Part shown: positions 3 through 24,902 of the stretch, in pieces
Position numbering within the stretch: the stretch's first letter is position 1
Layout of the letters: the number at the start of each line of letters is the position of its first letter
Origin: a virus
Direction: 5' to 3' (one strand)
Length of the DNA: 37,010 nt
IMG/VR virus record: IMGVR_UViG_3300042868_004050
Location: 1 to 37,010 of that record
The notes under the pieces: model-generated
Seen by the model: only the letters and a program-made list of their open reading frames with translations
Database searches by the model: none
What the model was told of the DNA's origin: nothing
Position numbers and translations under genes: made by a program

Positions 3-1217
3 GGCGGGACAGGAACAGTCAGTGGTTTATCACTTACAGGTTCGGTATCAACAACGGGAAATCTTACATTGGGCGGCACATTAGCTGTTGCCAATGCAAG
101 CACGACTGCAACCGACTTGAATACTGCCTCGACCATTGTCGCTCGGGATGGCTCTGGTAACTTTTTTGCTGGAACCATTACAGCAGCTTTGACTGGCAAT
201 GCAACAACTGCTACATCTGCTACATCTGCTACAACCGCAGGAACAATTACAAGCCAAGCAAACAGCGCAACGATTACTGCTGCAACTACAAGCACGGCCT
301 CAACTATTGTTCTTCGAGATGCTTCAGGGGATTTTGCAGCCGGAACAATTACTGCTGCCTTGACTGGCAATGCATCAACCGCTACATCTGCTGCAACCGC
401 AGGAACAATTACAAGCCAAGCAAACAGCGCAACGATTGCTGCTGCAAGCGCAAACACTGCGTCTACTATTGTTCTTCGAGATGCTTCAGGGGATTTTGCA
501 GCCGGAACAATTACCGCATCTTTAACAGGTAACGCATCAACAGCAACATCTGCAACCACTGCGGGATCAATTACAAGTCAGGCTAACAGCGCAACAATTA
601 CTGCCGCAACTGCGAACACTGCATCTACTGTTGTTCTTCGCGACGCTTCGGGAAACTTTTCAGCCGGAACAATTACAGCAGCTTTGACTGGCAATGCATC
701 AACTGCAACCGCTGCGGGATCAATTACAAGTCAGGCAAACAGTGCAACTATTGCAGCGGCGACTTCAAGCACGGCTTCAACTATTGTTCTTCGAGATGCC
801 TCCGGGGATTTTGCTGCCAATACGATTGGTGCAGTCAATGTAAATATTTCAGGAACAATAACTCCGCAACTTACAAAATCAAAAGTTTATCAAGACTTTG
901 TTTCCAGCACGACTGCAAATTCAGCAACGACTAATATTGATTTGTCCTTGGGAAATACATTTGTAGTGACGATTTCTGCAAATACAACACTTGCATTTCT
1001 CAATCCACCGTCAGGAACAGATGTAACTTCATTCACGATTATTACGCTCAACGATGGTACTGGTGGTTATGCCGTTTCGTTCCCTGCTTCAGCAACTTGG
1101 GCAGGGGGTCAATTGCCAACAAGAACTACTGCGGCAAATAAACAAGACCTTTGGACTTTCTTTACTCGAAATGCGGGTACACAGTATGTCGGCACATTGT
1201 CCATCGCAAACTTCTAA
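3..1217 (+). CDS. Phage tail fibre protein, repeat-rich, 5'-truncated by the window edge
   Basis: The reading frame is open from base 3 with no stop, so the true start lies left of the window; the TTG at 69 is only an internal codon. The visible protein begins GGTGTVSG. It then has about five degenerate repeats of 51-54 residues, each containing a [ST]TIV[LA]RD[AG]SG[DN]F core, a GTITAALTGNAST segment and a TITSQANSATI segment. This motif family is typical of phage tail fibres and suggests a repetitive trimeric beta-structured shaft. The last ~110 residues (bases ~880-1217) are non-repetitive and rich in beta-type sequence, ending in GTLSIANF; this is the likely tip or receptor-contact domain. 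The gene is followed 8 bases later by another repeat protein, so it probably belongs to a tail-fibre operon. The fibre call is sound; the receptor is unknown. Confidence 0.8.
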   Translation, partial: GGTGTVSGLSLTGSVSTTGNLTLGGTLAVANASTTATDLNTASTIVARDGSGNFFAGTITAALTGNATTATSATSATTAGTITSQANSATITAATTSTASTIVLRDASGDFAAGTITAALTGNASTATSAATAGTITSQANSATIAAASANTASTIVLRDASGDFAAGTITASLTGNASTATSATTAGSITSQANSATITAATANTASTVVLRDASGNFSAGTITAALTGNASTATAAGSITSQANSATIAAATSSTASTIVLRDASGDFAANTIGAVNVNISGTITPQLTKSKVYQDFVSSTTANSATTNIDLSLGNTFVVTISANTTLAFLNPPSGTDVTSFTIITLNDGTGGYAVSFPASATWAGGQLPTRTTAANKQDLWTFFTRNAGTQYVGTLSIANF

Positions 1218-1225
1218 GGTACACA

Positions 1226-2824
1226 ATGAAGCTTGCAAAAAACCTACTCAGACAGAAAACGCGAGCAACGGTTTTTCAAACCGTTACATTTAACGCTCCT
1301 GGAATTTATTACCCACCGTATGGTAGGTCGGCTTTTTTACTGCAGGGTCAAGGTCAGCCGGGTAACTATGCAAGCGGCGGTAATTACGCCAGCATGAATC
1401 CAAATTCCGGTGCTAATTACGCTAATACGAACCCAGGCACTCCGCCTAGTTACGTAAGTACCAACCCAAATTCAGGCGGTAATGCCGCTAACACAAACCC
1501 CGTAACAGGCGGCAATTTCTCCAGCACAAATCCTGTAACAGGTGGCAACTACGCTAACACGAATCCTGTAACAGGTGGCAACTACGCTAACACGAACCCC
1601 GTAACAGGAGGTAATTACGCCAATACAAATCCTGTAACAGGCGGCAACTATGCCAATACAAATCCTGTAACGGGGGGCAATTACGTTAGTACTAATCCTG
1701 TAACAGGCGGCAACTACGCCGGAGTGAATCCAAACTCGGGCCCCAATTATTCTGGAATGAATGCCGCCACAGGCGGAAACTATGCCGGTGTGAATGCCGA
1801 CACTAACCCTACTTACGCAGGTACTAATCCGGGTTCAGGTGGCACCTATGCTGGTGAAAACCCCGGCTCTCCCGGCAATTACTCTGGCATGAATGCAAAT
1901 TCAGGCGGAAATTATGCTGGTGAGAATGCTGGATCGGGTGGAAATTATGCCGGTGCTAATCCCGGATCGGGTGGCAATGCTGCAACTAATCCATCTACTC
2001 CCGGCAATCCTGTGGGAACGCTTTATCAATATTTTTCACCTTATCTGGTTGACTCTTATAACGAATACCCCGGCGTTGTTTTTGCAGCTTCTACTTACTC
2101 AGACAATAACTCTGTTCCCGGATATCTTTATGTTGCTCAATATGGCACATATTATACTGCAAGCACTCCAGGAAATGCTTATACAAACCCTTACGTTCCG
2201 GGTAACGCTTACTATAATCCGTATACCCCGGGTAATGCTTACTATAATACTTATTTTCCCGGCAATCCCAATTATAATCCCTACACTCCAGGCAACGCCT
2301 ACTTTAATCCGTATGTAGCCGGTAATGCTAACTATAATCCTTATGTAGCCGGTAATCCCAACTATAATCCATATTATCCCGCCAATGCAAACTATAATCC
2401 TTATGTAGCCGGTAACCCCAACTATAATCCATACGTACCGGGGAATGATAACTACAACCCGTATGTACCGGGGAATCCTAATATCAATGCCTACGTGCCG
2501 GGAAATGATAATTACAACCCATACGTACCAGGGAATCTTAACTACAACCCTTATGTAGCCGGTAACGATAATTACAACCCGTATGTTCCGGGGAATGCTA
2601 ATTACAACCCGTATGTTCCGGGGAATGCTAATTACAACCCCTATTATCCTGGCAATCCATCGTCACCTAGTTCAGCACTGGGCGTGACTTTGCCCGGTGG
2701 CAGCAGCGATTCATCCGCACCTGTTATTGGTTATGTGCCGGTAGTCATTCAATACTCCAATAGTGGAACCCCCGTTACTGTACCAACAGGCGGTTATGTC
2801 TTAATTCAAAACACACAGCCATGA
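1226..2824 (+). CDS. Gly/Asn/Pro-rich tandem-repeat protein, probable fibre-associated adhesin
   Basis: This 532-residue protein has no family I recognise. I chose the ATG at 1226 because an AAGG lies 6 bases upstream (1216-1219) and it avoids a long overlap with the preceding fibre gene. After a basic N-terminus (MKLAKNLLRQKTRATVFQ) come 18 consecutive 11-residue units of the form GGNYANTNPVT (1376-1969). A non-repetitive linker follows, then 16 consecutive 10-residue units of the form PGNANYNPYV (2168-2647) and a short hydrophobic C-terminal segment. Such strict short periods suggest a solenoid or extended fibre. Codons vary between most units, so the protein pattern is under selection, while some neighbouring units are nearly identical in DNA, which suggests recent duplication. 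The next gene, a 2OG-Fe(II) dioxygenase, overlaps its stop as ATGA and may modify the repeat prolines or asparagines (inference). Confidence 0.72.
   Translation: MKLAKNLLRQKTRATVFQTVTFNAPGIYYPPYGRSAFLLQGQGQPGNYASGGNYASMNPNSGANYANTNPGTPPSYVSTNPNSGGNAANTNPVTGGNFSSTNPVTGGNYANTNPVTGGNYANTNPVTGGNYANTNPVTGGNYANTNPVTGGNYVSTNPVTGGNYAGVNPNSGPNYSGMNAATGGNYAGVNADTNPTYAGTNPGSGGTYAGENPGSPGNYSGMNANSGGNYAGENAGSGGNYAGANPGSGGNAATNPSTPGNPVGTLYQYFSPYLVDSYNEYPGVVFAASTYSDNNSVPGYLYVAQYGTYYTASTPGNAYTNPYVPGNAYYNPYTPGNAYYNTYFPGNPNYNPYTPGNAYFNPYVAGNANYNPYVAGNPNYNPYYPANANYNPYVAGNPNYNPYVPGNDNYNPYVPGNPNINAYVPGNDNYNPYVPGNLNYNPYVAGNDNYNPYVPGNANYNPYVPGNANYNPYYPGNPSSPSSALGVTLPGGSSDSSAPVIGYVPVVIQYSNSGTPVTVPTGGYVLIQNTQP
1376..1969 (+). 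repeat. Coding tandem repeat, 33 bp x 18 units
   Basis: Eighteen uninterrupted units of 33 bp encode variants of GGNYANTNPVT. Units 6-9 are identical in protein and nearly identical in DNA, while the flanking units are diverged. The phase never breaks until a 30-bp unit at 1970. It is an in-frame protein repeat, not a CRISPR array. Confidence 0.9.
2168..2647 (+). repeat. Coding tandem repeat, 30 bp x 16 units
   Basis: Sixteen units of 30 bp encode variants of [PA]GNxNYNPYV. The period (10 residues) differs from that of the first block (11 residues) in the same gene. Pro, Gly, Asn and Tyr positions are strongly conserved, and the first residue of each unit is Pro or Ala. Confidence 0.9.
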
Positions 2825-3426
2825 AACAAATTCCAGACATGAACCGCATTCCAGAAATGCACACCGCATTAGACAACTTCATTGTTTACCAAAATGGTTT
2901 TAATGAAGATGAATTAAGCAGAATCATTAATTTTGGAGAATTGGCTGAATTTCAAAAAGGTGAAGTTGGCTCGGGCAAGGAAGCAAAAGTTTCAGAGGAT
3001 ACCAGAGAAACAGATATTACTTGGTTACACCCACATCCCGACACGCAGTGGATTTATGAACGGATGTCAAGCATTGCAGCAAAAATCAATCACGATAAAT
3101 TTCAATTTGATTTAAGCCACTTTCAACCGTTTCAATATGGTAAGTACAAAACAAACGGACATTACAACTGGCACTTTGATTCAGGCCCCAATATGCCGGA
3201 ACATAGAAAACTATCATTTGTGCTTGGATTGGTTGACCCTAATGGATACGAAGGGGGAGAGTTTCAAATAAATACAAATGGAAATTCTGATAAAGCGCAT
3301 AGCTTTAAGATTCTCAAGGGAGATTTAATTGTATTCCCAGCTTTTATGGGGCATCGAGTTACACCTGTTACATCCGGTGAACGAATGACTTTAACAGCAT
3401 GGGCTATCGGTCCTAAATTCAGGTAA
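2821..3426 (+). CDS. 2-oxoglutarate/Fe(II)-dependent dioxygenase, prolyl 4-hydroxylase-like
   Basis: The 201-residue protein carries the signature of the 2OG-Fe(II) oxygenase superfamily. The metal ligands are H118 and D120 (NWHFDSG) and H178 (MGHRVTPV), with R188 (GERMTL) placed to bind the 2-oxoglutarate carboxylate. A typical GGEF strand precedes the distal histidine. Enzymes of this family couple oxidation of 2-oxoglutarate to hydroxylation of a substrate such as proline, asparagine or a nucleobase. The substrate cannot be read from sequence. The ATG at 2821 overlaps the stop of the upstream repeat gene (ATGA), so the two are translationally coupled; a role in hydroxylating that Pro/Asn-rich protein is an attractive inference. 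An alternative is a DNA- or metabolite-modifying enzyme, as proposed for related phage oxygenases. Confidence 0.87.
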   Translation: MKQIPDMNRIPEMHTALDNFIVYQNGFNEDELSRIINFGELAEFQKGEVGSGKEAKVSEDTRETDITWLHPHPDTQWIYERMSSIAAKINHDKFQFDLSHFQPFQYGKYKTNGHYNWHFDSGPNMPEHRKLSFVLGLVDPNGYEGGEFQINTNGNSDKAHSFKILKGDLIVFPAFMGHRVTPVTSGERMTLTAWAIGPKFR

Positions 3427-3431
3427 ATACA

Positions 3432-4151
3432 ATGAACTTAATCTCAATATTTAAAACGCCAGTCATTGAGTTTTTTTGTGATGAGCGCTATTTTGGCGTT
3501 GCACCAAACCCATGTCCCGCTAGTAAAAATATACCGGAGTGGTTTAAACAAATTCCTCCGATTAGCAAAACTACTAGAGACTCATTTTCAAGACCTGCAT
3601 TGAACGCAAAGAAATGTTTGCCAATGCTTGATGCAATGACCATTGGTTTCACGATGCCGTTAGCAATTAGCCAACACATCAAATCAAATCATGATTTATC
3701 AAAAATTGAAATTTGTTCAACATCAACAAATTTTGATAGAGCCGTTGAAAGGCATAGCTTGGAGCAAGTAGGCAATGCTGAAGTTTTTGGTAAAGCTGAT
3801 CCAGTCAAGTTCATTAACCCGTGGGTTGTAAAAACCGCCCCCGGATGGTCAACTTTATTTATACCGCCTATCAACAGTACAGAGGATAGATTTATTTGTT
3901 TGGGTGGGTTAGTTGATACAGATAAATATCCAAAGCAAGTTAACTTTCCAGCAAGATGGTTAAAGCCTAATTTTGATGACACCCTTGTTGCGGGAACACC
4001 TTTGGTAACAGCGATACCCATCAAACGGCAACACGTAGAACATGTCGCTCGTCAAATGACTGATGCTGAAGCAAAAGAAATTGACAGGATCAGACGTTGC
4101 CAAGATAGCAGAAGTCACTACTACACCCAAGAATTGAGATGCCCCCGATGA
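3432..4151 (+). CDS. Conserved phage protein of unknown function, paralogue A
   Basis: This 239-residue protein has no function I can assign. It starts 5 bases after the oxygenase gene, with AGGT at 3421-3424 as a ribosome site. Visible motifs are an N-terminal IPEWFKQIPP, a KKCLPMLDAMTIGFTMPL segment, a PGWSTLFIPP segment, a FPARW segment and a C-terminal AGTPLVTAIPIKR. The same ordered motifs occur in the next gene, so the two are tandem paralogues. There is no signal peptide or membrane segment. Small soluble proteins of this pattern occur beside tail-fibre genes in other phages. Position between a fibre operon and a fibre-assembly protein suggests a tail or host-interaction role, which is inference only. 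Confidence 0.7.
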   Translation: MNLISIFKTPVIEFFCDERYFGVAPNPCPASKNIPEWFKQIPPISKTTRDSFSRPALNAKKCLPMLDAMTIGFTMPLAISQHIKSNHDLSKIEICSTSTNFDRAVERHSLEQVGNAEVFGKADPVKFINPWVVKTAPGWSTLFIPPINSTEDRFICLGGLVDTDKYPKQVNFPARWLKPNFDDTLVAGTPLVTAIPIKRQHVEHVARQMTDAEAKEIDRIRRCQDSRSHYYTQELRCPR

Positions 4152-4876
4152 TGGCGCACGTCCGTTCTTGGTTTAGTCCTGCACCTGAAATAACATTCAG
4201 GCCACACTCGGGAGCACCTCAAGTTTCAAAGATTACGCGAATTCAATTGGCAAGCGAAGTTACGCCAAGTTGGTTAGCTGATCAAAAGAATTACGAAAAC
4301 AGCAGAGAAAAGTTTCAAAATTGTCCCGGTATGCACGACCTTATGAGGGCCGGTTATATCATCAACGCATGGGATGACATTAGGATAAAAGCGAATCGGG
4401 TTGGGACTATTGCTAAATTGACTATGTCTTTTACTCCTCAGTTGCAAGCAATGAGTCCTAAAGTTGTGACTGGTATCGCGCCAATTGAGAAAGATATGCC
4501 ATTGCAGGTATACAAATTAAATTCACCTTGGAGCATCACTACACGCGCCGGTTGGTCAGCAATGGTTTTACCCGCAACTTTCCATTCACCCTTTTTCAAA
4601 GACTTGTATGTTTACGGTGGCATCAATGATTACGAAGATTTTCACATCATGAATTTCATTTTTTCACCGCTACGTGAGTGTGAAGTTTTTATCCCAGCAG
4701 GGACTCCTTTGCTGCAAGTCATTCCATACAAACGCGAATCTTTGAAAGCCGTAACTGGCTCATCAACGCAACATGACCGTGATATTTATCACTTTTCTTT
4801 TCCTACGCGAGTACGGGCGGCGTATAGAAAATTATTTCACCACCGTAAAACTTACACACTGGAGCATCAAAAATGA
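4148..4876 (+). CDS. Conserved phage protein of unknown function, paralogue B
   Basis: This is the second copy of the family in the preceding gene, with the same order of motifs: FQNCPGMHDLMRAGYII, a SPWSITTRAGWSAMVLP segment, a FIFSPLR segment in place of FPARW, and AGTPLLQVIPYKR. Identity between the copies is low outside these motifs, so the duplication is old. In-frame ATGs exist at 4139, 4148 and 4151. I prefer 4148 because it gives the ATGA stop-start overlap seen repeatedly in this phage; 4139 would add MPP. The stop overlaps the next start by 4 bases. No enzymatic motif is visible, and both copies keep the cysteine, glycine and tryptophan core residues. Confidence 0.7.
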   Translation: MMAHVRSWFSPAPEITFRPHSGAPQVSKITRIQLASEVTPSWLADQKNYENSREKFQNCPGMHDLMRAGYIINAWDDIRIKANRVGTIAKLTMSFTPQLQAMSPKVVTGIAPIEKDMPLQVYKLNSPWSITTRAGWSAMVLPATFHSPFFKDLYVYGGINDYEDFHIMNFIFSPLRECEVFIPAGTPLLQVIPYKRESLKAVTGSSTQHDRDIYHFSFPTRVRAAYRKLFHHRKTYTLEHQK

Positions 4877-5283
4877 TAATTTATTACTGCATTGAAAAAG
4901 ACACAAAAAAAGCTTTATCTGCCGGGTTCTTAAAAGACACATGGGGAACAATTACCGGGATGAAAGATTTGGGCGAGCAAGAAGTTTATAACTTAACTTG
5001 GGCTAATTATCCCAATCATGGTTTCATGACTTTGTCAGCCGCTTTGGCATATGGTGTACTGCAAGAAGAGTTAGATGCTGCAAAAGTACTTGGTTCTGTA
5101 TTTCAATCTGATTATGTAAGAGCAGATAGGGTTGTCCGTTTGGCAGCGACTGATTGGAGGTTTCGTACCGACCAACAACCGGCGCAAGATTGGATTGACT
5201 ATTGCCAAGCACTACGCGACATCACGGATCAAACTGGATTTCCTTGGGAAATCAATTGGCCTGTTGAGCCATTAGTGGGGTAA
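4873..5283 (+). CDS. Tail fibre assembly / tail assembly chaperone-like protein
   Basis: The 136-residue protein ends with a pattern known from phage tail assembly chaperones (Phage_tail_APC-like): a basic-hydrophobic LAATDWRFRTDQQP, then W-x-x-Y-x-x-ALRDIT, then TGFPWEINWP. These domains are thought to help folding or attachment of the distal tail fibre. The N-terminal half is specific to this phage. One usual arginine in the WxxYRQALRDI motif is cysteine here (DYCQALRDI). The start overlaps the upstream stop as ATGA. Position at the end of the fibre block fits a fibre-folding helper. The motif match is good; the exact client protein is inferred. Confidence 0.72.
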   Translation: MIIYYCIEKDTKKALSAGFLKDTWGTITGMKDLGEQEVYNLTWANYPNHGFMTLSAALAYGVLQEELDAAKVLGSVFQSDYVRADRVVRLAATDWRFRTDQQPAQDWIDYCQALRDITDQTGFPWEINWPVEPLVG

Positions 5284-16283: not shown

Positions 16284-19200
16284 ATGGCTACGCTTAAACA
16301 GCTTCGTGAGTTTTTTCCGATGGCTGCGTCCGATGAGGACGCGATCAGCCGTGCATCGCAACAGTTTGGGATAGACCCCTCTGAGATTGCTAACGAAGTT
16401 GGGTATGACGTTGGTGGGGGTAGGCTGACTTCCAAGCGAATTGGAGGCTCGTTAGATAGCTATCAATCTGGCCTCTACGAGACCGGAGCTGCTGCGGCTG
16501 GAGCCGTGGGGCTTGGCGGCGCTAAAGCCTATATGGACCGCAAAGCGTCTGATAACAGACTTCAAGCGGAAGTTGCAGGATCGCGGGCTAGGGCACTTGG
16601 CGGAATCGACTCTTACAAAGACGTTGAAGGAGTTGGCACTGGCTTGAACTACTTGGGCGGATTAGCTGCTCAATCAGTACCTTACGTTGGTGAGGCTGCG
16701 GTTGGAGGTGTACTTACTCGAAGCGCGCTTACGGGTTTACGTGCGACTGTGGCAGCGGGGCGTGTTGCTGGTGCAACTGAAGAGGCAGTGACTGCGGCTA
16801 GAACGGCGCAGAAGGCCATTGATTTTCGCAGTGTTGCCGGTGCTACCGCAGCCAGCTACCCAAGCTCAATGGGAGACATTCTCGGCAATCAGCGCGAGCA
16901 AATTGAAATTAGTGGGGGCGAGATGCGCCCCGGCATGGCTGCACTGGGTGCTATTCCTTACTCACTGCTAAATGCAGGAACCGGCGTTGGCGGGCTAGCG
17001 GCTAGGGGCAATCTTGCTCGCAGCGGGGTACGTGCCCTTGATGATATGGACGGTTTTAAAGGCGGCTTAGCCCGCACGGGCGCTGCTGTTACTAGGGTGG
17101 CGGGCGCGGAAGGTGCTGGAGAGCTCGGTCAAGAGTTTGTGAACCAGGGGGCTGGCCGTATGGCGGTGGACCCTTACCAGAAGTTTTGGGACGATTCCGT
17201 TAACCCAGACGGCTCACCAACCAACCGCAATTCAACAGATCGCTACGCAGAGTCATTTGTCGGCGGCGCCGTTATGGGCGGAGCGACGGGAGTTATCGGC
17301 GGTCATCGCCGAAGCGCTGGCTACAAAGCTCCTGCGGAGCCTGTTTCAGATACCCAAGAGACTAATTTGTTAGCGCCAAATGACGGCACTGGGCCACCCA
17401 CAGATTTGATTGGACCAGGTATTCCTCGTCAGGGCATTCAAACAAACATGTCGGGGTTTAACCAGGAGTTTCCTGAGAACCAATTTAGCCCGATAAACCG
17501 AGGTGGTGTTCCTGATGCTAACGTTGCTTCCAACATGGCCGAGCTACAAAACTTGCGGAGCCAAAAGAGCGGAATCGTTTCCTATTTACAGTCGCTTCAA
17601 GATAGTGGAAACCAAGATGCCTACTACCGCTTCTTGGACCAAGCGTACCCAGCTATTGACAAGATTGATGAAGCTATGGCTCCGCTGGAGCGACTCGAGG
17701 CAGCACAAAGAGACAGTGGGGGTCAACAAGGCTTTGACTTTAACAATGCTCAGCAAAATCAAAACGTTGGCGATTCTCTCATTCCTGCTACTGGAGTAGG
17801 CCCACAAGACCTAATTAACCAGCAGCTAGGCCTTACTCGCCCAGACGTTGCAGGCGCCACACAGAAGGAAAAAAACAAGTACCCAAGCTTGTTTGAAGAC
17901 GCGGCCTCTGAGCAAACTGGTCAGGACATCTCTGACAGCGCTACAGACCAAACGGAGTTCAATGACACTGCGCTTCAGGACGTACAGCGACAAGCTGGAA
18001 TCCTGCAGCAGCAACGAGTAGCTCAACAAAAACTTGAGGGCATGCAGAAAGAAGTGCAGGCAGAAACTGCACGAGTGGCGGCGTCAAACGCTCGGGGTAC
18101 CGGCTTTGGTATCAAGGGCAAAGCTGCTCTCGATGTGTTCGATCAATTGGAGCAGTTCTTCGAACAGGGCAGAGCCACTGAGGCAGAGTTCAAAGAGAAC
18201 GCATCCTTGCTAGCTCAACGCAAAATGGGTTCCGTTAAGAAGTGGATGGACGCCATCACAGGCACAAAAGCCGCTGCTAATTCACCCGTAGCTGTCCCCA
18301 CCATCGCTGCACCCGCAGCACTAACCACGCAAGAAAATGGCACTCAAACCAATCAAACCGTCCAAACAGAAACGCAACCAAACACCCAAGCAGGAGCGCA
18401 AGCCTTGCCTACAAAAGGCGTCCGAACATTAGCCCGAGGAACCCTCGCAGCCTCACAAGCTGTTGATCCCGTTGCTACTGATGCTGTTGTTGCTACCGCT
18501 GACCCAATCGCTGACGAAGCTCCTGTAGCTCCAACTGAGTTTGTCAATGGAGTTCCGGTGCAGAAGCTATCTTATGTTGAGCCCGCTACAGGCTCTAAAG
18601 CATTAGATGAAGACGGCCTACCTTCTGTTGCGGCGATCCATGAAAAAGTTAAAGGGTTGTTACTGGCAAATGTATTGGGGCAGCACAGTCAAACCTATGA
18701 GCAATTTAAACTCAATCTTGCTCAAGTTACAGGCATGCAAGTTGAGACTGACCCCGAGACCGGAGTGGCTACGGTTATTCAGGCTAACAACCCTGTGCCT
18801 ATGGCTCAAGTAGCTGCTAGTAACGGTACCTCGCGCCAGGCTATTTCGCAGAGCCTCAACGGCCGTGGAATTACCGACAAACTAATTGAGAAATTAGTCT
18901 TCAACGCCAACCCCACGAATTCAAGCTTTGACCCCGATGCCAACGAACAAGACGCTCCCACGGGAGACGACACCATTGACCCCACTGACAACAGAGCAGA
19001 AAAAGAATATGGGTCAGACGCTGTAGTTGAAGACGCTGCAGTTAACGGTGGTATGCGCGTGGAGAATTCTGCAGCGAAGGCAATGGGCGAGGGTCTTGTC
19101 ACCAACGACGTAACTTATTCGCCCCAAGAAACAAAGCTGATTGGCAACTCAGCCAAAGCAATTAAGGAAGCGGAGTTCAGCCAAGGATCAATTGATGCGG

Positions 19201-22200
19201 CTATCGAGGGTAAAAGCGATAGGATGAAGAATGCAATTCTGGCCACAGCGGCGAAGCTCCAAATCTCTAGCAGCAGGGCCGTAGGGACAAAGGTTAAAAC
19301 AACCGCTGATATTGCATTTGAAGGCAAGCGCTCTGAAGCGGCTAAAGCATCTTACATGCGTGAGCTTGCGCTTTTTTGGAATGGCCCTGATGGGGCAAAT
19401 ACTGCAAGCGACTGGAATGAGCGCACTGCGGGAAACTTTCCTGACTTCGATCAACTTACTACTGCCCAGCAGTTAAACTGGACGGCGGGTCTGTATGAGC
19501 TAACCAAGGAACAAACAAATGACCAAGAAGCCATTGACGCCCTCTTCACCCAACTCTCCAATGGAGTCCCCCGTAGTACGCAAGCCGACCGGAGCCTCGC
19601 AGATAACGCCAGAGGGATGGGCACAAATAGCGAACCTGCTGGAACGAGCGAAGGAGCTGGGGCTTCGGGACGACCAGCCCAGCCAGCCGCCCAAGTAACG
19701 GTCAAGAAAACTCGTAAGGTTGCGCAACCGGCTATTGCGGACGACTCACGCACCATCGACGGAACTGATCTAGTCCGCGAAGTCTCAGAGCAAGAGATGC
19801 TTCTGTTGGAGTCGGGCGTCGGCAGCTTGCCTGATGCTCAGCGAGGTGCTCTCGAGAAGGCATATGGAGAAAAAGCCGGTACTGAGGCGTTCTCCGCCAG
19901 GCTGCGTGAAGATGTCACCAACTACATCAACAAAGGCATTGAGTCTGTCTCTGCTGCCATTCGCCACATTATCAAGAGCGTTGCCGAAGGCGTACTTGCA
20001 GTTGGTATTGTTTTTAACCCAACAGCGTTCAGCAACAAGTTAGACCTTCAGCTAGCTCAAATCGTTAAGACTCAGGTAACTAGCCAGGTTAAAACTGAGG
20101 TCCCTGCTAACGCCAAGGCAAAGATGTCTACGCAAGCTCAAGGTGTCTACGAGTCGATGGCTCCCACTGCCGCCAAGCTAGGTAAGGGCTTCATCATTGC
20201 AGACAAGCCGATGGGCATGGTCCACATCTTTAAAGCTGATGGCTCAGTGCTTGTTCAAGACGCAGCTTTGTACGGTAAAGATAAAGGAGATACCTTAGAC
20301 AGTAAATCTTCTCTGCAAGGCGGTCCTAAGACTACTCCGGCTGGCTCATTCCACCTGGAAGCAATGGACGATAAAGACTATACCGGCGGTAAAGTTCTAT
20401 CCCTCGTCGAGAGCCGAGACTCTACAGGTTACGTTGCGGTTCACTCCGTGTACTTGGGTGACCCCAAAGAGCAGCGAGTTGAGCGCTTTAAATCAGCAAA
20501 CCCCGATGATCGCCGAGTAAGCTTTGGCTGCATCAACACGACTGAGGATACGTTTGTAAATAATGTGCTTCCAGTTATTAATGAATTCAACGGCGGCATG
20601 ATATTTGTGATGCCCGAAGCTCAGGAAAACACTGCGGCCATGTTCCCCGCCCAGACAGTAACTACTGAGGTTGAGCAAGCTGAAGGGGGCGTTAAAACTG
20701 CGGATGCTCGTTTAGGAGCGCTTGGCAAGAACGATGAAGTCGTTGCTGAGAAAGTAAGACTGTCTCAAGGCAACAAAACCCAGAGCAGCACCGTAGCCCG
20801 AGTAACTTCCGAAGTTAAAGGCCTGATGCCCATCAGCTCTCGTTTGGTTGTAGTCGAATCATTTGCTGACTTGCCTTCTCATGTGCAGCAGAGCGTAGCT
20901 CAACAGTCTGCCGACGGCAAAACTGTTCAGGGTTTTATCCTTGGCGGCAAAGCCTACTTGATTGCAAAAAACATTGCCCCCGGTAAAGCCCGTGCCGTTT
21001 TTATGCACGAAGTCGGCTCTCACCTTGGGCTTGATAACCTTTTGTCCCCAGAGCAACATGCCGCATTGGCGGCTAAAGTGTCTGAGTGGGCTGCACGCAA
21101 CGACGGCTCTCGGGAATCTAATCTAGCCCAAGCCGCATTGGCAAGGGTTGAGCAGGCGGGGGTAAGCGAAGAAGATCGTAACTCTGAGCTGATCGCTTAC
21201 TTCATTGAAGAAGCTGTGAACGCAGGTATTGATCCTACAGCTAACAGCTACAAGTCCGACTTGGATCGATGGTTCCGCACTGTGTGGGCTGCTTTCAAAT
21301 CAGCAATGCACCGCCTCGGTGTAAACCCAGATAAGTTGACCGCTCAAGATATGGTGGACATGGCTTACGGCGCTGCAAAGTTGGAGATGAATGGTGCTTG
21401 GCATGGTACTGCAGCGGAGTTTAAAAAGTTTAACCACAAGTATATGAACAGCGGAGAAGGCGCCCAGGCTCACGGCTGGGGTTCGTACTTTGCTCAGGCT
21501 CCGGGAATTGCCAAAGGGTACTTTGAGCGGGACGTAAAGAACAAGACAGGCAAAGGCTCGATTCCTCCACAAGGTAACTTGATGCGTATCGATTTCAATG
21601 TTGCAGAGGACGAATGGCTTGACCTAAACGAGAAGTTAAATGAAAGAAATTTGCAGCTCCTCGAAACCAACTTGCCCAGCACGTTAAAAGATGATTTGGT
21701 GGAGGCAGTTAACGAAGAACTAAACGAGATGGACGGGCGGGACCTGTATCGCGGCTTAGTATTCTTGGAAAAACTAGATGGTTCGGTATCTGATTTATTT
21801 AAAGACACTGAGGCGTACAACGCCAAGCTAGCTAACAAAGACGCAGATCAAATAGTATCCACTTACCTAGACTCTATCGGAATCAAGGGCAGCAGGTTTT
21901 TGGACGCAAACAGTCGCACAGATCGCAGAGGTAAGTTGTTTATTGATGGGCAGCGAGTCAAAGCTTTGCCCTCCATGGAGTTTGGGGAGCGAGACGGCAT
22001 TGAGCGGCTCATGGTTAATGATGGTAATTTAACCGAGGCTCTCAAAGAAGCAAAGAACGAGGCGCTAGGCACACAAGAAGAAATCAAGTACCTCGAGTCA
22101 CTGCAGGGCAAAGAAATAAGCTTAGAAGGCGCTAGTCAAACTCAAAATCTTGTGGTTTTTAATGACGAAAATATCCAGCGCGTAGCTTCCCTTAAAGGGG

Positions 22201-24902
22201 CGGACAAAGGCAAAGTGCAGTTCTCCGTTGCCGCTAGCCCCAGTGCTGCTGCAGCAGTCAAATCTATGGCTCGCTCTGTAGGCGGTCGCTCTGCTGAGTC
22301 GCTGGCTATCAGCGGCATGCACTTCGCACGCAAAGCTGCTCTCTCGATGGAGTCGCTCCACAGTTTAGTGGATCGTTTTGAAGGCCGTATCCCTGCTATT
22401 CGCCCTTGGTACAACGCAATGATTGCTACATCGAGCCGACGCCGTGAGCTGGAAGCGTCAGCCGAAAAAGTGTCTGCAATGGCCACGAAGCTAAAGGACT
22501 CTACGGCAGTAAACCAGTTTATATCTGAGTCAACTGTCGACCAGAAATGGGGTTATGACCCCGGCTTCAAGAACCGTAAGAAGCCAGTGGTATTGGATGC
22601 CGCAATGAAGCAGAAGTTCAATCGCCTCACAGCGCCTGAACAAGAAGTAGTTAAAGCAGTCTTTGCCCACGGCGAAGAAATGTCTGAGGCTAAGAACAAG
22701 ATTCTTAAGACTCTTGGTATTGATGACATCTTCACCAGCAAGGGCAAACTTGAAGGACCATACGCTCCACTCAAGCGCTTCGGTAATTACATTTCAATCC
22801 TAAAGTCCAAAGAGTTGGTGGCGGCACTAGATGAAAAAACTGGCAACGCTGCGCTAGCAGACAAGCTCAAGTCTAGTCCAGACAACTACGTGGTGACTTC
22901 CTTTGACACGATGGGCGAAGCCGAGCTCCACGCTAAAGATAATGCTGCTGACTTCCTCGGCGGTACGGCTGATGCTTTCGAGAAGTCTGTGCGCGTTGAT
23001 GCTGATCGAGTCATGAATCCTGCTCTGTTAGCAAAGGTAATGGCTGCTGTGAACGCGAGTGACATACCTACAGAGGCGCAAGCGGCCGTGCACTCACTCG
23101 TACAGGACATGTACTTTCAGTCCCTCGATGAGCAAAACGCTCGTACCTCGGGGCTTAAGCGTAAGAATCGTGCGGGCTATGAAGCTGACATGATTCGTTC
23201 GTTCTTGTCTAACGCCCGCGCAGAAGCAGGGTTCTTGGCAAACATGGAGCACGGCGGTGACATAAACCGACAGTTCTACGAAATGCAGAAGGGGGCTAAA
23301 GATGCGCAAGGTAAACGGGTCCACCAGACCGAGTTCAACACACTTGCAGCTCACTACGCTGACAGCTTGAAGTACACCAAGACTCCTTGGCAAGACGCAC
23401 TAATGGCGGGTACTGCTGCTTGGCAGCTTTCAACGAGCCCTGCTTATCACTTGGTTAACGCGATGCAAGGCATCATGGTTACTGTGCCTCGTTTGGCTGC
23501 TGACTTCAACGATTACACCGGAGCTTGGAGTGCTCTTCTTGCTGGCTACGGCACGCTGAAGCAAACTGGTATGTGGGGGAATATCAACTTATCCAGAGTC
23601 AGCAACCCAGGTCTTCGTGCTGCGCTTCAGAAAGCTGCCGATATGGGCGTACTGGATGTCGGCTTGGATGAGGACTTAACTCGCCTCGAGGCGACTCGAA
23701 CTGGTGTGGCGGCAATCGACCGTTCAACAGGTCTCGCTCAGACAGCGCTTCACAAGTTGCGTCAAGTATCACGCGCAGTGGAGATGGCTAACCGTGTGTC
23801 CTCCGCTACAGCGGGCTACAACATGTCTATTGCCAGGGGAGATGGCGAGGCAGCAGCTCAAGCTTACGCAGTGCGCCTTCTTCAGGACACGCAGGGTGAC
23901 TTCAGCCGCACCGATGCACCGTTGATACTTAAGAAGTTGCCTAAAGTTGTGACCCAGTACAAAAAGTACCAGTTCATGATGGCAGCGCTTTACGTTAAGG
24001 CGTTCCAACAAGCGTTCAACAGCACAGACCCTGAAGTTAAGGCCATTGGTCGCCGGATGCTAGCTTACAAGTTGTTCCATACAAGCATGGCTGCGGGCGC
24101 TCTTGGCATGCCGCTGGCTAACGTGGTTGGTATGGTGTTCGCAGCCCTTGGCGGCGATGACGGTGAGCCACCTGATCTTGAGCGCACGTTGAGGGAGTTG
24201 ATTGGCGACGAGGACATGGCAAACATTCTTCTGCACGGCCCCTTAAGTTATCTTGGTGTGGACCTTTCCGGCAAGCTCGGCGACGATAAGATTTTCTCCA
24301 TTTTGCCTTACGGTACTTGGGACTTCTCTAGCGCAGCAGGACTTATAAAGACTGCGGCTTCACTTGCTGGACCCGGAGTTTCTCAGCTTGGGAAAATGGC
24401 CGACGGCGTGGGCCTCATCGGTAAGGGCGAGCTAGGTAAAGGCACTGAGAAGCTGATGCCAAGCGGTATTGCAAACGCTATGAAAGCTTTCCGTATTGCT
24501 AACGAAGGGTTCACGCTGAAGAACGGAGATGTGATGTTCCGGCCTGAGGACATTAACGGTATGTCCCTTGCATTGGATGCGTTGGGCGTGCCCTCTGCGG
24601 CTTTGAAACGAATGGAGTGGATACGTAGCCAGCAGTACGAGATCAGCCGCTTCTACACTGACCAGTCGAGCCAGATCAAGCAAGAGTATGCGGCGGCAAC
24701 TAAAGACGGAGACTACGAAGTTCAGGCTCAGTTGAGAGCTGATTGGATGGCGCTTCAAGGTGGCAAGGCCAAAATGCGTCAATACTTCGGTGATTCCCAA
24801 GACGCGCTTAAAGCACAGCCGCTAACTACGCTACTGAAGTACCCCTCAACTAAGGCAGAGAGAGAAGCCAAGCTGCAAAGAGCAGCTCAGGTCTCTAACT
24901 AA
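16284..24902 (+). CDS. Giant polyvalent internal virion protein (L,D-transpeptidase, zincin-like, ART-like, PLxRFG)
   Basis: At 2872 residues this is the largest gene in the window. The N-terminus (LREFFPMAASDEDAI, then GLYETGAAAAGAVGLGG) has a Gly/Ala hydrophobic segment at ~65-85. A helix-turn-helix-like stretch lies near 840-872. An L,D-transpeptidase (YkuD-like) domain spans ~1300-1445, with H1387 and the SFGCIN motif (catalytic C1416); it could act on peptidoglycan cross-links. A zincin-like motif HEVGSH is at 1575-1580. An ADP-ribosyltransferase-like domain of polyvalent proteins starts at WHGT (1706-1709), continues GEGAQAHGWGSYFA and ends near NLVVFND (~1955). The APLKRFG motif at 2161-2167 defines the PLxRFG family. 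A membrane-prone segment lies at ~2600-2622. Such proteins are packaged and injected with the DNA to breach the wall and modify host targets. Confidence 0.9.
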   Translation: MATLKQLREFFPMAASDEDAISRASQQFGIDPSEIANEVGYDVGGGRLTSKRIGGSLDSYQSGLYETGAAAAGAVGLGGAKAYMDRKASDNRLQAEVAGSRARALGGIDSYKDVEGVGTGLNYLGGLAAQSVPYVGEAAVGGVLTRSALTGLRATVAAGRVAGATEEAVTAARTAQKAIDFRSVAGATAASYPSSMGDILGNQREQIEISGGEMRPGMAALGAIPYSLLNAGTGVGGLAARGNLARSGVRALDDMDGFKGGLARTGAAVTRVAGAEGAGELGQEFVNQGAGRMAVDPYQKFWDDSVNPDGSPTNRNSTDRYAESFVGGAVMGGATGVIGGHRRSAGYKAPAEPVSDTQETNLLAPNDGTGPPTDLIGPGIPRQGIQTNMSGFNQEFPENQFSPINRGGVPDANVASNMAELQNLRSQKSGIVSYLQSLQDSGNQDAYYRFLDQAYPAIDKIDEAMAPLERLEAAQRDSGGQQGFDFNNAQQNQNVGDSLIPATGVGPQDLINQQLGLTRPDVAGATQKEKNKYPSLFEDAASEQTGQDISDSATDQTEFNDTALQDVQRQAGILQQQRVAQQKLEGMQKEVQAETARVAASNARGTGFGIKGKAALDVFDQLEQFFEQGRATEAEFKENASLLAQRKMGSVKKWMDAITGTKAAANSPVAVPTIAAPAALTTQENGTQTNQTVQTETQPNTQAGAQALPTKGVRTLARGTLAASQAVDPVATDAVVATADPIADEAPVAPTEFVNGVPVQKLSYVEPATGSKALDEDGLPSVAAIHEKVKGLLLANVLGQHSQTYEQFKLNLAQVTGMQVETDPETGVATVIQANNPVPMAQVAASNGTSRQAISQSLNGRGITDKLIEKLVFNANPTNSSFDPDANEQDAPTGDDTIDPTDNRAEKEYGSDAVVEDAAVNGGMRVENSAAKAMGEGLVTNDVTYSPQETKLIGNSAKAIKEAEFSQGSIDAAIEGKSDRMKNAILATAAKLQISSSRAVGTKVKTTADIAFEGKRSEAAKASYMRELALFWNGPDGANTASDWNERTAGNFPDFDQLTTAQQLNWTAGLYELTKEQTNDQEAIDALFTQLSNGVPRSTQADRSLADNARGMGTNSEPAGTSEGAGASGRPAQPAAQVTVKKTRKVAQPAIADDSRTIDGTDLVREVSEQEMLLLESGVGSLPDAQRGALEKAYGEKAGTEAFSARLREDVTNYINKGIESVSAAIRHIIKSVAEGVLAVGIVFNPTAFSNKLDLQLAQIVKTQVTSQVKTEVPANAKAKMSTQAQGVYESMAPTAAKLGKGFIIADKPMGMVHIFKADGSVLVQDAALYGKDKGDTLDSKSSLQGGPKTTPAGSFHLEAMDDKDYTGGKVLSLVESRDSTGYVAVHSVYLGDPKEQRVERFKSANPDDRRVSFGCINTTEDTFVNNVLPVINEFNGGMIFVMPEAQENTAAMFPAQTVTTEVEQAEGGVKTADARLGALGKNDEVVAEKVRLSQGNKTQSSTVARVTSEVKGLMPISSRLVVVESFADLPSHVQQSVAQQSADGKTVQGFILGGKAYLIAKNIAPGKARAVFMHEVGSHLGLDNLLSPEQHAALAAKVSEWAARNDGSRESNLAQAALARVEQAGVSEEDRNSELIAYFIEEAVNAGIDPTANSYKSDLDRWFRTVWAAFKSAMHRLGVNPDKLTAQDMVDMAYGAAKLEMNGAWHGTAAEFKKFNHKYMNSGEGAQAHGWGSYFAQAPGIAKGYFERDVKNKTGKGSIPPQGNLMRIDFNVAEDEWLDLNEKLNERNLQLLETNLPSTLKDDLVEAVNEELNEMDGRDLYRGLVFLEKLDGSVSDLFKDTEAYNAKLANKDADQIVSTYLDSIGIKGSRFLDANSRTDRRGKLFIDGQRVKALPSMEFGERDGIERLMVNDGNLTEALKEAKNEALGTQEEIKYLESLQGKEISLEGASQTQNLVVFNDENIQRVASLKGADKGKVQFSVAASPSAAAAVKSMARSVGGRSAESLAISGMHFARKAALSMESLHSLVDRFEGRIPAIRPWYNAMIATSSRRRELEASAEKVSAMATKLKDSTAVNQFISESTVDQKWGYDPGFKNRKKPVVLDAAMKQKFNRLTAPEQEVVKAVFAHGEEMSEAKNKILKTLGIDDIFTSKGKLEGPYAPLKRFGNYISILKSKELVAALDEKTGNAALADKLKSSPDNYVVTSFDTMGEAELHAKDNAADFLGGTADAFEKSVRVDADRVMNPALLAKVMAAVNASDIPTEAQAAVHSLVQDMYFQSLDEQNARTSGLKRKNRAGYEADMIRSFLSNARAEAGFLANMEHGGDINRQFYEMQKGAKDAQGKRVHQTEFNTLAAHYADSLKYTKTPWQDALMAGTAAWQLSTSPAYHLVNAMQGIMVTVPRLAADFNDYTGAWSALLAGYGTLKQTGMWGNINLSRVSNPGLRAALQKAADMGVLDVGLDEDLTRLEATRTGVAAIDRSTGLAQTALHKLRQVSRAVEMANRVSSATAGYNMSIARGDGEAAAQAYAVRLLQDTQGDFSRTDAPLILKKLPKVVTQYKKYQFMMAALYVKAFQQAFNSTDPEVKAIGRRMLAYKLFHTSMAAGALGMPLANVVGMVFAALGGDDGEPPDLERTLRELIGDEDMANILLHGPLSYLGVDLSGKLGDDKIFSILPYGTWDFSSAAGLIKTAASLAGPGVSQLGKMADGVGLIGKGELGKGTEKLMPSGIANAMKAFRIANEGFTLKNGDVMFRPEDINGMSLALDALGVPSAALKRMEWIRSQQYEISRFYTDQSSQIKQEYAAATKDGDYEVQAQLRADWMALQGGKAKMRQYFGDSQDALKAQPLTTLLKYPSTKAEREAKLQRAAQVSN

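Follow-up and report, generated by a model that had tools for sequence, protein, structure and literature searches.

A phage tail-fibre cassette that probably decorates its own putative adhesin, built around a prolyl-hydroxylase-like oxygenase

Prolyl 4-hydroxylases (P4Hs), among them characterised enzymes from a virus (5c5t/5c5u), Bacillus anthracis (3itq/5hv0), Pseudomonas (4iw3/4j25) and Chlamydomonas (2jig/3gze), share a DSBH 2OG-Fe(II) domain, an HxD...H motif and a basic residue for 2OG, all of which are also found in the phage oxygenase analysed here. In canonical P4Hs this basic residue is a lysine, and hydroxyproline is known to rigidify collagen and plant wall proteins. Mimivirus is known to add both hydroxyls and sugars to a repeat protein of its own by means of L230, a bifunctional collagen hydroxylase/glycosyltransferase; we liken it to our locus by description only, and it differs in belonging to a eukaryotic virus, in acting on lysine rather than proline and in having collagen as its substrate. 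In the Skp1 pathway, the prolyl hydroxylase PhyA acts first, and Gnt1, the namesake of family PF11397, then works on the hydroxylated protein, glycosylating the hydroxyproline of Skp1 (PMC3515798). A 2022 survey states that viral use of prolyl 4-hydroxylase "remains cryptic", and it cites the P4H of chlorella virus PBCV-1 as a eukaryotic-virus case of own-protein hydroxylation (PMC9301287). Our search of the open-access literature found no report of hydroxyproline in phage virions or of a comparable phage hydroxylation system, and no paper on DUF6065 or on the cassette of repeat protein and oxygenase that we describe below.

The window, by which we mean the whole stretch of DNA analysed, is a complete virus record of 37,010 bases. 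The genes that matter for our argument lie at its left end:

3..1217, + strand: tail fibre protein encoded ahead of REP, its ORF open on the 5' side, where the contig ends; PHROG tail fibre/structural matches (phrog_697 1.5e-26, phrog_9017 2.8e-10)
1226..2824, + strand: REP, a repeat-armed putative adhesin of 532 aa, recognised as an ORF with repeats and with relatives in unrelated phage contigs
1226..1375, + strand: REP N-cap (TFNAPGIYYPPYG...GQPGN), kept across REP proteins and co-folding with the C-cap in an AlphaFold2 model of the relative L091
1376..1969, + strand: REP repeat arm 1, residues 51-248, 18 units of 11 aa, GGNYANTNPVT type
2015..2161, + strand: REP non-repetitive centre, 49 aa, a possible tip, diverging faster than the caps
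2168..2647, + strand: REP repeat arm 2, residues 315-474, 16 units of 10 aa, PGNANYNPYV type
2657..2821, + strand: REP C-cap (LGVTLPGG...VTVPTGGYVLI), conserved, with confident beta strands alongside the N-cap in the L091 model
2821..3426, + strand: 2OG-Fe(II) oxygenase, prolyl-hydroxylase-like, 201 aa (PF13640, 4.2e-16)
3432..4151, + strand: DUF6065-A, with a predicted trimeric-dUTPase-like fold (PF19541 1e-8, phrog_7084)
4139..4876, + strand: DUF6065-B, a divergent paralogue of DUF6065-A (phrog_7084 8.5e-28, alignment)
4873..5283, + strand: tail fibre assembly chaperone (PF16778, 7.9e-13)

On the 3' side of the chaperone come small ORFs, then a lysozyme and more tail genes, and elsewhere the contig encodes an integrase, a DNA polymerase and a helicase. 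The upstream tail fibre gene contains a four-copy 162-bp tandem repeat (171-818), and a 2,872-aa protein is encoded at 16284-24902 of this 37-kb contig, its C-terminal part giving a DarB-like antirestriction match (phrog_10089 3e-41). With a tail fibre gene upstream and the PF16778 chaperone downstream, REP stands in a fibre or adhesin gene context, and because it is encoded among tail genes it is presumably part of the virion.

The sequence-only reading of this locus counted 34 short repeats in REP, a count that we find correct and that lies far beyond what a shuffled protein would give: four-mers with at least three copies account for 215 occurrences, where 1000 shufflings of this protein gave 3.4 on average and never more than 21, and 15 of the 18 units of arm 1 fit a single strict pattern. 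Where the codons of repeat copies differ, roughly every second difference is synonymous (409/824 in arm 1 and 485/813 in arm 2), so it is the protein sequence that selection keeps. What that reading lacked was the arrangement of the repeats as cap, arm, centre, arm and cap, the two DUF6065 genes, and the sugar- and sulfate-adding enzymes of related cassettes. The caps are the constant part of the protein. Compared with the nearest relative, identity is 42/47 in the N-cap and 45/55 in the C-cap and falls to 32/49 in the centre, which becomes unalignable among distant REPs; across relatives the caps follow the consensus TFNAPGxYxPPYGK...VxGRGxxGN and LGVTFPGG...APVV...VSVPxGGYVTI. The repeat types between them vary strongly among phages (PGNxNYNP, TNYNVAYPIANQPATA, YNPGNPATYTGN, GSQNLANTYNQ, NPPNPGSYTPG). 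An AlphaFold2 model of the short relative L091, a REP of 276 aa, has a low overall pLDDT of 60, with arms near 40 and a centre of intermediate value, and its two caps fold jointly into one beta domain of high confidence, with pLDDT mostly between 83 and 94. REP thus has the look of an adhesin with arms and a tip: the caps would be its anchor, the arms would reach outward and the centre would form the tip.

Could REP belong to a known adhesin class? It resembles the glycine-rich adhesins of the S16/PP01 gp38 type in having low-complexity repeats framed by beta strands and a tail-fibre context, and its weak BFVD matches include several phage proteins named as "glycine-rich domain-containing". 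However, its repeats are made of Asn, Tyr, Pro and Gly with periods of 10-11, the fold match is not significant, and the Pfam glycine-rich domain gives no match. The window protein itself matches nothing in Pfam, NCBIfam or PHROG, and the REP family has marginal or single-member matches only in Pfam and PHROGs. Nothing significant was found for the REP fold in the PDB; VIA matches to a Bxb1 tail-tip chain (Z 5.3) and to the Bacillus anthracis spore glycoprotein 3twi (Z 4.3) were set aside as too weak. A collagen-like repeat was likewise rejected, since there are no Gly-X-Y runs, the longest being two triplets in the window and three among 93 REPs. Finally, a tblastn search of INPHARED with the window REP returned no match, so that no cultured phage carrying it is known from that collection.

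The oxygenase can be placed more firmly. The window protein scores 60.1 bits against PF13640, where the curated cut-off is 27, and all 52 of its relatives match the same family. The residues H118, D120, H178 and R188 that the sequence-only reading singled out are correctly positioned, and as HxD...H iron ligands and basic 2OG ligand they are invariant in 52/52 diverse cassette oxygenases. A profile of 52 aligned members, searched against the PDB, matches at E<=1e-3 PKHD hydroxylases, prolyl 4-hydroxylases (5c5t, 4iw3, 2jig, 3gze, 3itq and 5hv0), PHD2, P3H1 and one generic 2OG oxidoreductase. Characterised P4Hs are matched at 3e-12 to 6e-7, with 5c5t at 2.9e-12 over positions 21-169 and 4iw3 at 8.7e-11 over positions 38-191, and R62, W68, N90, Q105, Y109, Y115 and R129 align with identical residues in 5c5t. 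By its sequence, then, the oxygenase is related to characterised P4Hs along most of its domain. Unlike the P4Hs, it uses an arginine as its 2OG residue, is encoded by a phage within a fibre cassette and has a partner that is not collagen-like; its hydroxylase activity is putative. Counted against a prolyl reading is that the best-scoring PDB match belongs to the PKHD/PiuC group, of the YbiX/PiuC type (Sbal_3634, 3dkq, 1.2e-15). That match covers the catalytic C-terminal half, whereas the N-terminal half aligns to 5c5t and not to PKHD, and R129 is common to the phage family and 5c5t where PKHD has a threonine; the equivalent arginine in P4H contacts the peptide substrate. Against NCBIfam PRK05467 (PKHD) the window oxygenase scores 67.5 bits (1.2e-18), under the curated cut-off of 143 bits.

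How tightly is this enzyme tied to REP? We collected loci from IMG/VR contigs of up to 372 kb with REP, the REP N-cap and DUF6065-A as queries, annotated them by gene calls and profile searches, and dereplicated the lineages; the C-cap alignment proved too weakly conserved to scan the collection with. The common order is REP (one to four copies), oxygenase, DUF6065-A and DUF6065-B. Among lineages picked by DUF6065 alone, 49 of 51 have both oxygenase and REP nearby; among those picked by REP alone, 14 of 15 have oxygenase and DUF6065, the exception (L112) having neither within 5 kb downstream of its REP. The co-occurrence of the two gene families, which had been proposed as a check, is thus borne out. 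Further neighbours are much less constant, the commonest being the PF11397 glycosyltransferase (22/56 lineages) and the fibre chaperone (17/56), with none near universal. REP lies directly upstream of the oxygenase in 63 distinct pairs. The sequence-only reading had taken the start of the oxygenase in the stop codon of REP to mean that the two are translated together; in the window the ORFs do share an ATGA, but the overlap is not conserved, recurring in 3 of the 63 pairs with gaps of 2-118 nt in the remainder, and we have dropped it as evidence of coupling. Overlaps are usual further on, between oxygenase and DUF6065-A (42/58) and between the two DUF6065 genes (54/62). In a maximum-likelihood tree a single group of 63 rows takes in the cassette oxygenases, with 0 of 44 other rows inside and moderate support (87/62); the sole cassette oxygenase outside it is a second copy, L188:2857. 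Oxygenases outside this clade, in other phages, come without REP, so it is in the other clades, and not in this one, that the enzyme occurs unaccompanied by the repeat protein. Two further arrangements were seen. In one contig (L125:168-740) and its kin (L127, L131, L132, L136) a second oxygenase adjoins a PF11397 glycosyltransferase and REP, and these second copies make up their own clade within the cassette oxygenases. Two loci (L086:5992-10906 and L097:6001-8798) carry four tandem REP paralogues per single oxygenase, which suggests tip diversification; a single oxygenase is shared by several tandem REPs in L086/L104 and L097.

These associations bear on whether REP is the substrate at all. 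2OG oxygenases are frequent in phages, where they are as a rule classed as auxiliary genes (phrog_61), and many relatives of this one are located elsewhere in other phages; the enzyme might therefore leave REP unmodified, either as an auxiliary metabolic or host-modifying gene travelling with the fibre module or as an enzyme for some other protein, be it the tail fibre encoded upstream, DUF6065 or one made by the host. Given the 49/51 co-occurrence, the position of REP directly upstream in 63 pairs, the restriction to one clade and the presence of more protein- or sugar-modifying enzymes within the cluster, we regard this as quite improbable. The earlier idea, hydroxylation of prolines or asparagines in the phage's own fibre with stiffening or masking as its purpose, survives in part, in the form that a P4H-like enzyme with a dedicated linkage to REP has a structural protein of the phage itself as its probable substrate, and we conclude that phages with this cassette probably decorate their own adhesin chemically.

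The enzymes within related cassettes suggest what such decoration could involve. A PF11397 glycosyltransferase occurs in about 40% of cassette lineages, mostly directly after DUF6065-B. All 20 members match the family at E<=1e-3 (best 1.2e-29), and the L118 enzyme scores 77.7 bits where the curated cut-off is 21. A reverse scan with this enzyme, covering 37 dereplicated lineages, recovered DUF6065 in 37/37, the oxygenase in 34/37 and a recognised REP in 30/37; the three loci without oxygenase start inside DUF6065 at a contig end. The pairing of a P4H-like enzyme with a nearby PF11397 gene is like the Skp1 pathway, and differs from it in the setting of a bacterial virus, in the substrate and in that PF11397 is absent from the window contig. 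PF11397 is also a broad family, which counts against reading the phage clade as acting on hydroxyproline. The cassette glycosyltransferase has no match in INPHARED. Four cassettes contain a second kind of transferase:

L110:7659-8357, L122:1602-2306, L176:4368-4988 and L179:4359-4988: sulfotransferase-family genes (PF03567)

These genes are placed between the oxygenase and DUF6065-A or 5' of the oxygenase. Many REP arms are rich in tyrosine, and tyrosine sulfation of the arms by these enzymes is conceivable. At two loci (L161:2022-3689 and L129:6447-7997) the glycosyltransferase is apparently fused to a methyltransferase domain, of FkbM type in the former and of another class in the latter, possibly for O-methylation of the sugar. 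With glycosyltransferases and sulfotransferases in related cassettes, hydroxylation may act as a handle for more decoration. The window has no PF11397 gene, and its cassette no sulfotransferase-family gene; as it lacks a glycosyltransferase, it is simpler to suppose that hydroxylation there serves rigidity or acts directly on surface chemistry.

Which residue would be hydroxylated? We think proline most likely, because of the closest characterised relatives of the oxygenase, the PF11397 partner, and the presence in all REP cores of proline (59/59, at least 9 times each) and of the dipeptide PG (59/59). Against proline as a universal arm target stands L161, with zero prolines in 246 repeat-arm residues. 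The same module could instead act on asparagine, by beta-hydroxylation of the kind that FIH and AspH carry out on repeat proteins, or on some other arm residue. Asparagine is the only residue abundant in all arms of at least 60 residues, making up at least 13% of each, including those proline-free arms, and the dipeptides YN, NY and GN are each found in 58-59 of the 59 REP cores. On the other hand, the profile's closest characterised relatives are PKHD and prolyl hydroxylases, the partner family PF11397 is known from hydroxyproline, and proline and PG are in every core; Asn hydroxylases are absent from the PDB profile matches, though enzymes of the FIH type are too divergent for such a search to exclude. 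On balance we judge a target other than proline unlikely.

The two DUF6065 proteins are harder to place. An AlphaFold2 model from 54 sequences has a pLDDT of 90.5, and its comparison with trimeric dUTPases (Foldseek best E 5e-4; VIA Z about 10, for example 3ecy with 119 residues aligned at 2.9 A) points to a predicted dUTPase-like fold. The DUF6065 sequence profile gives no dUTPase match in the PDB, and a motif-3-like GLVDTDxYPKEVNFP was noticed by eye only. We tentatively suppose that DUF6065 serves the fibre as a trimer, either as a structural part or in assembly; it may also have a nucleotide-related role. The cultured viruses that carry DUF6065 are mainly haloarchaeal (HF1, HRTV and kin), with a single match each, and a genome scan found one MAG contig only. 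In two haloarchaeal virus regions examined, DUF6065 lies near a ribonucleotide reductase gene, and within 6 kb of it neither region is annotated with an oxygenase or a repeat protein. Such a fold, together with the fibre assembly chaperone that follows the module in 17/56 lineages, could be taken to mean that the oxygenase and the DUF6065 pair are folding or assembly factors or fibre parts rather than modifying enzymes. We find this hardly credible, since the oxygenase keeps all its metal and 2OG ligands in 52/52 relatives and a structural role would have no need of them.

We return to modification of REP, and infer the substrate of the enzyme, its target residue and the effect on the virion as follows. 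REP, the oxygenase, DUF6065-A and DUF6065-B would form one functional module of the host-recognition apparatus. The termini of REP would close into one beta domain, from which two arms run outward carrying the variable centre. The oxygenase would be a P4H-like protein hydroxylase with REP as its dedicated substrate, adding hydroxyls to side chains of the repeat region, with proline as the likeliest target. The hydroxyls would then either rigidify the arms or act as attachment points for sugars or sulfate, and in the roughly 40% of lineages that have the PF11397 enzyme the cassette would recreate the hydroxylase and GlcNAc-transferase pair of the Skp1 pathway. That this four-gene module hydroxylates its own REP, most likely on proline, for rigidity, as a handle for sugar, or both, seems to us reasonably likely. 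More tentatively, and short of calling it probable, we propose that tailed phages run a dedicated system of post-translational modification that places hydroxyproline in REP, often to be decorated by a PF11397 enzyme or a sulfotransferase, as a counterpart of the Skp1 hydroxyproline glycan in a mobile cassette with two DUF6065 proteins.

Genes resembling P4Hs often turn up as "auxiliary" genes in virus metagenomes. Here a whole clade of such oxygenases is tied to one candidate substrate and, in many lineages, to a member of an enzyme family that acts on hydroxyproline. If our proposal is true, the question of what phage hydroxylases are for would be answered: phages would put hydroxyls, and in some cases also sugars or sulfate, on a protein with a possible part in host recognition, and this would bear on how they adsorb and on how their assembly depends on oxygen.
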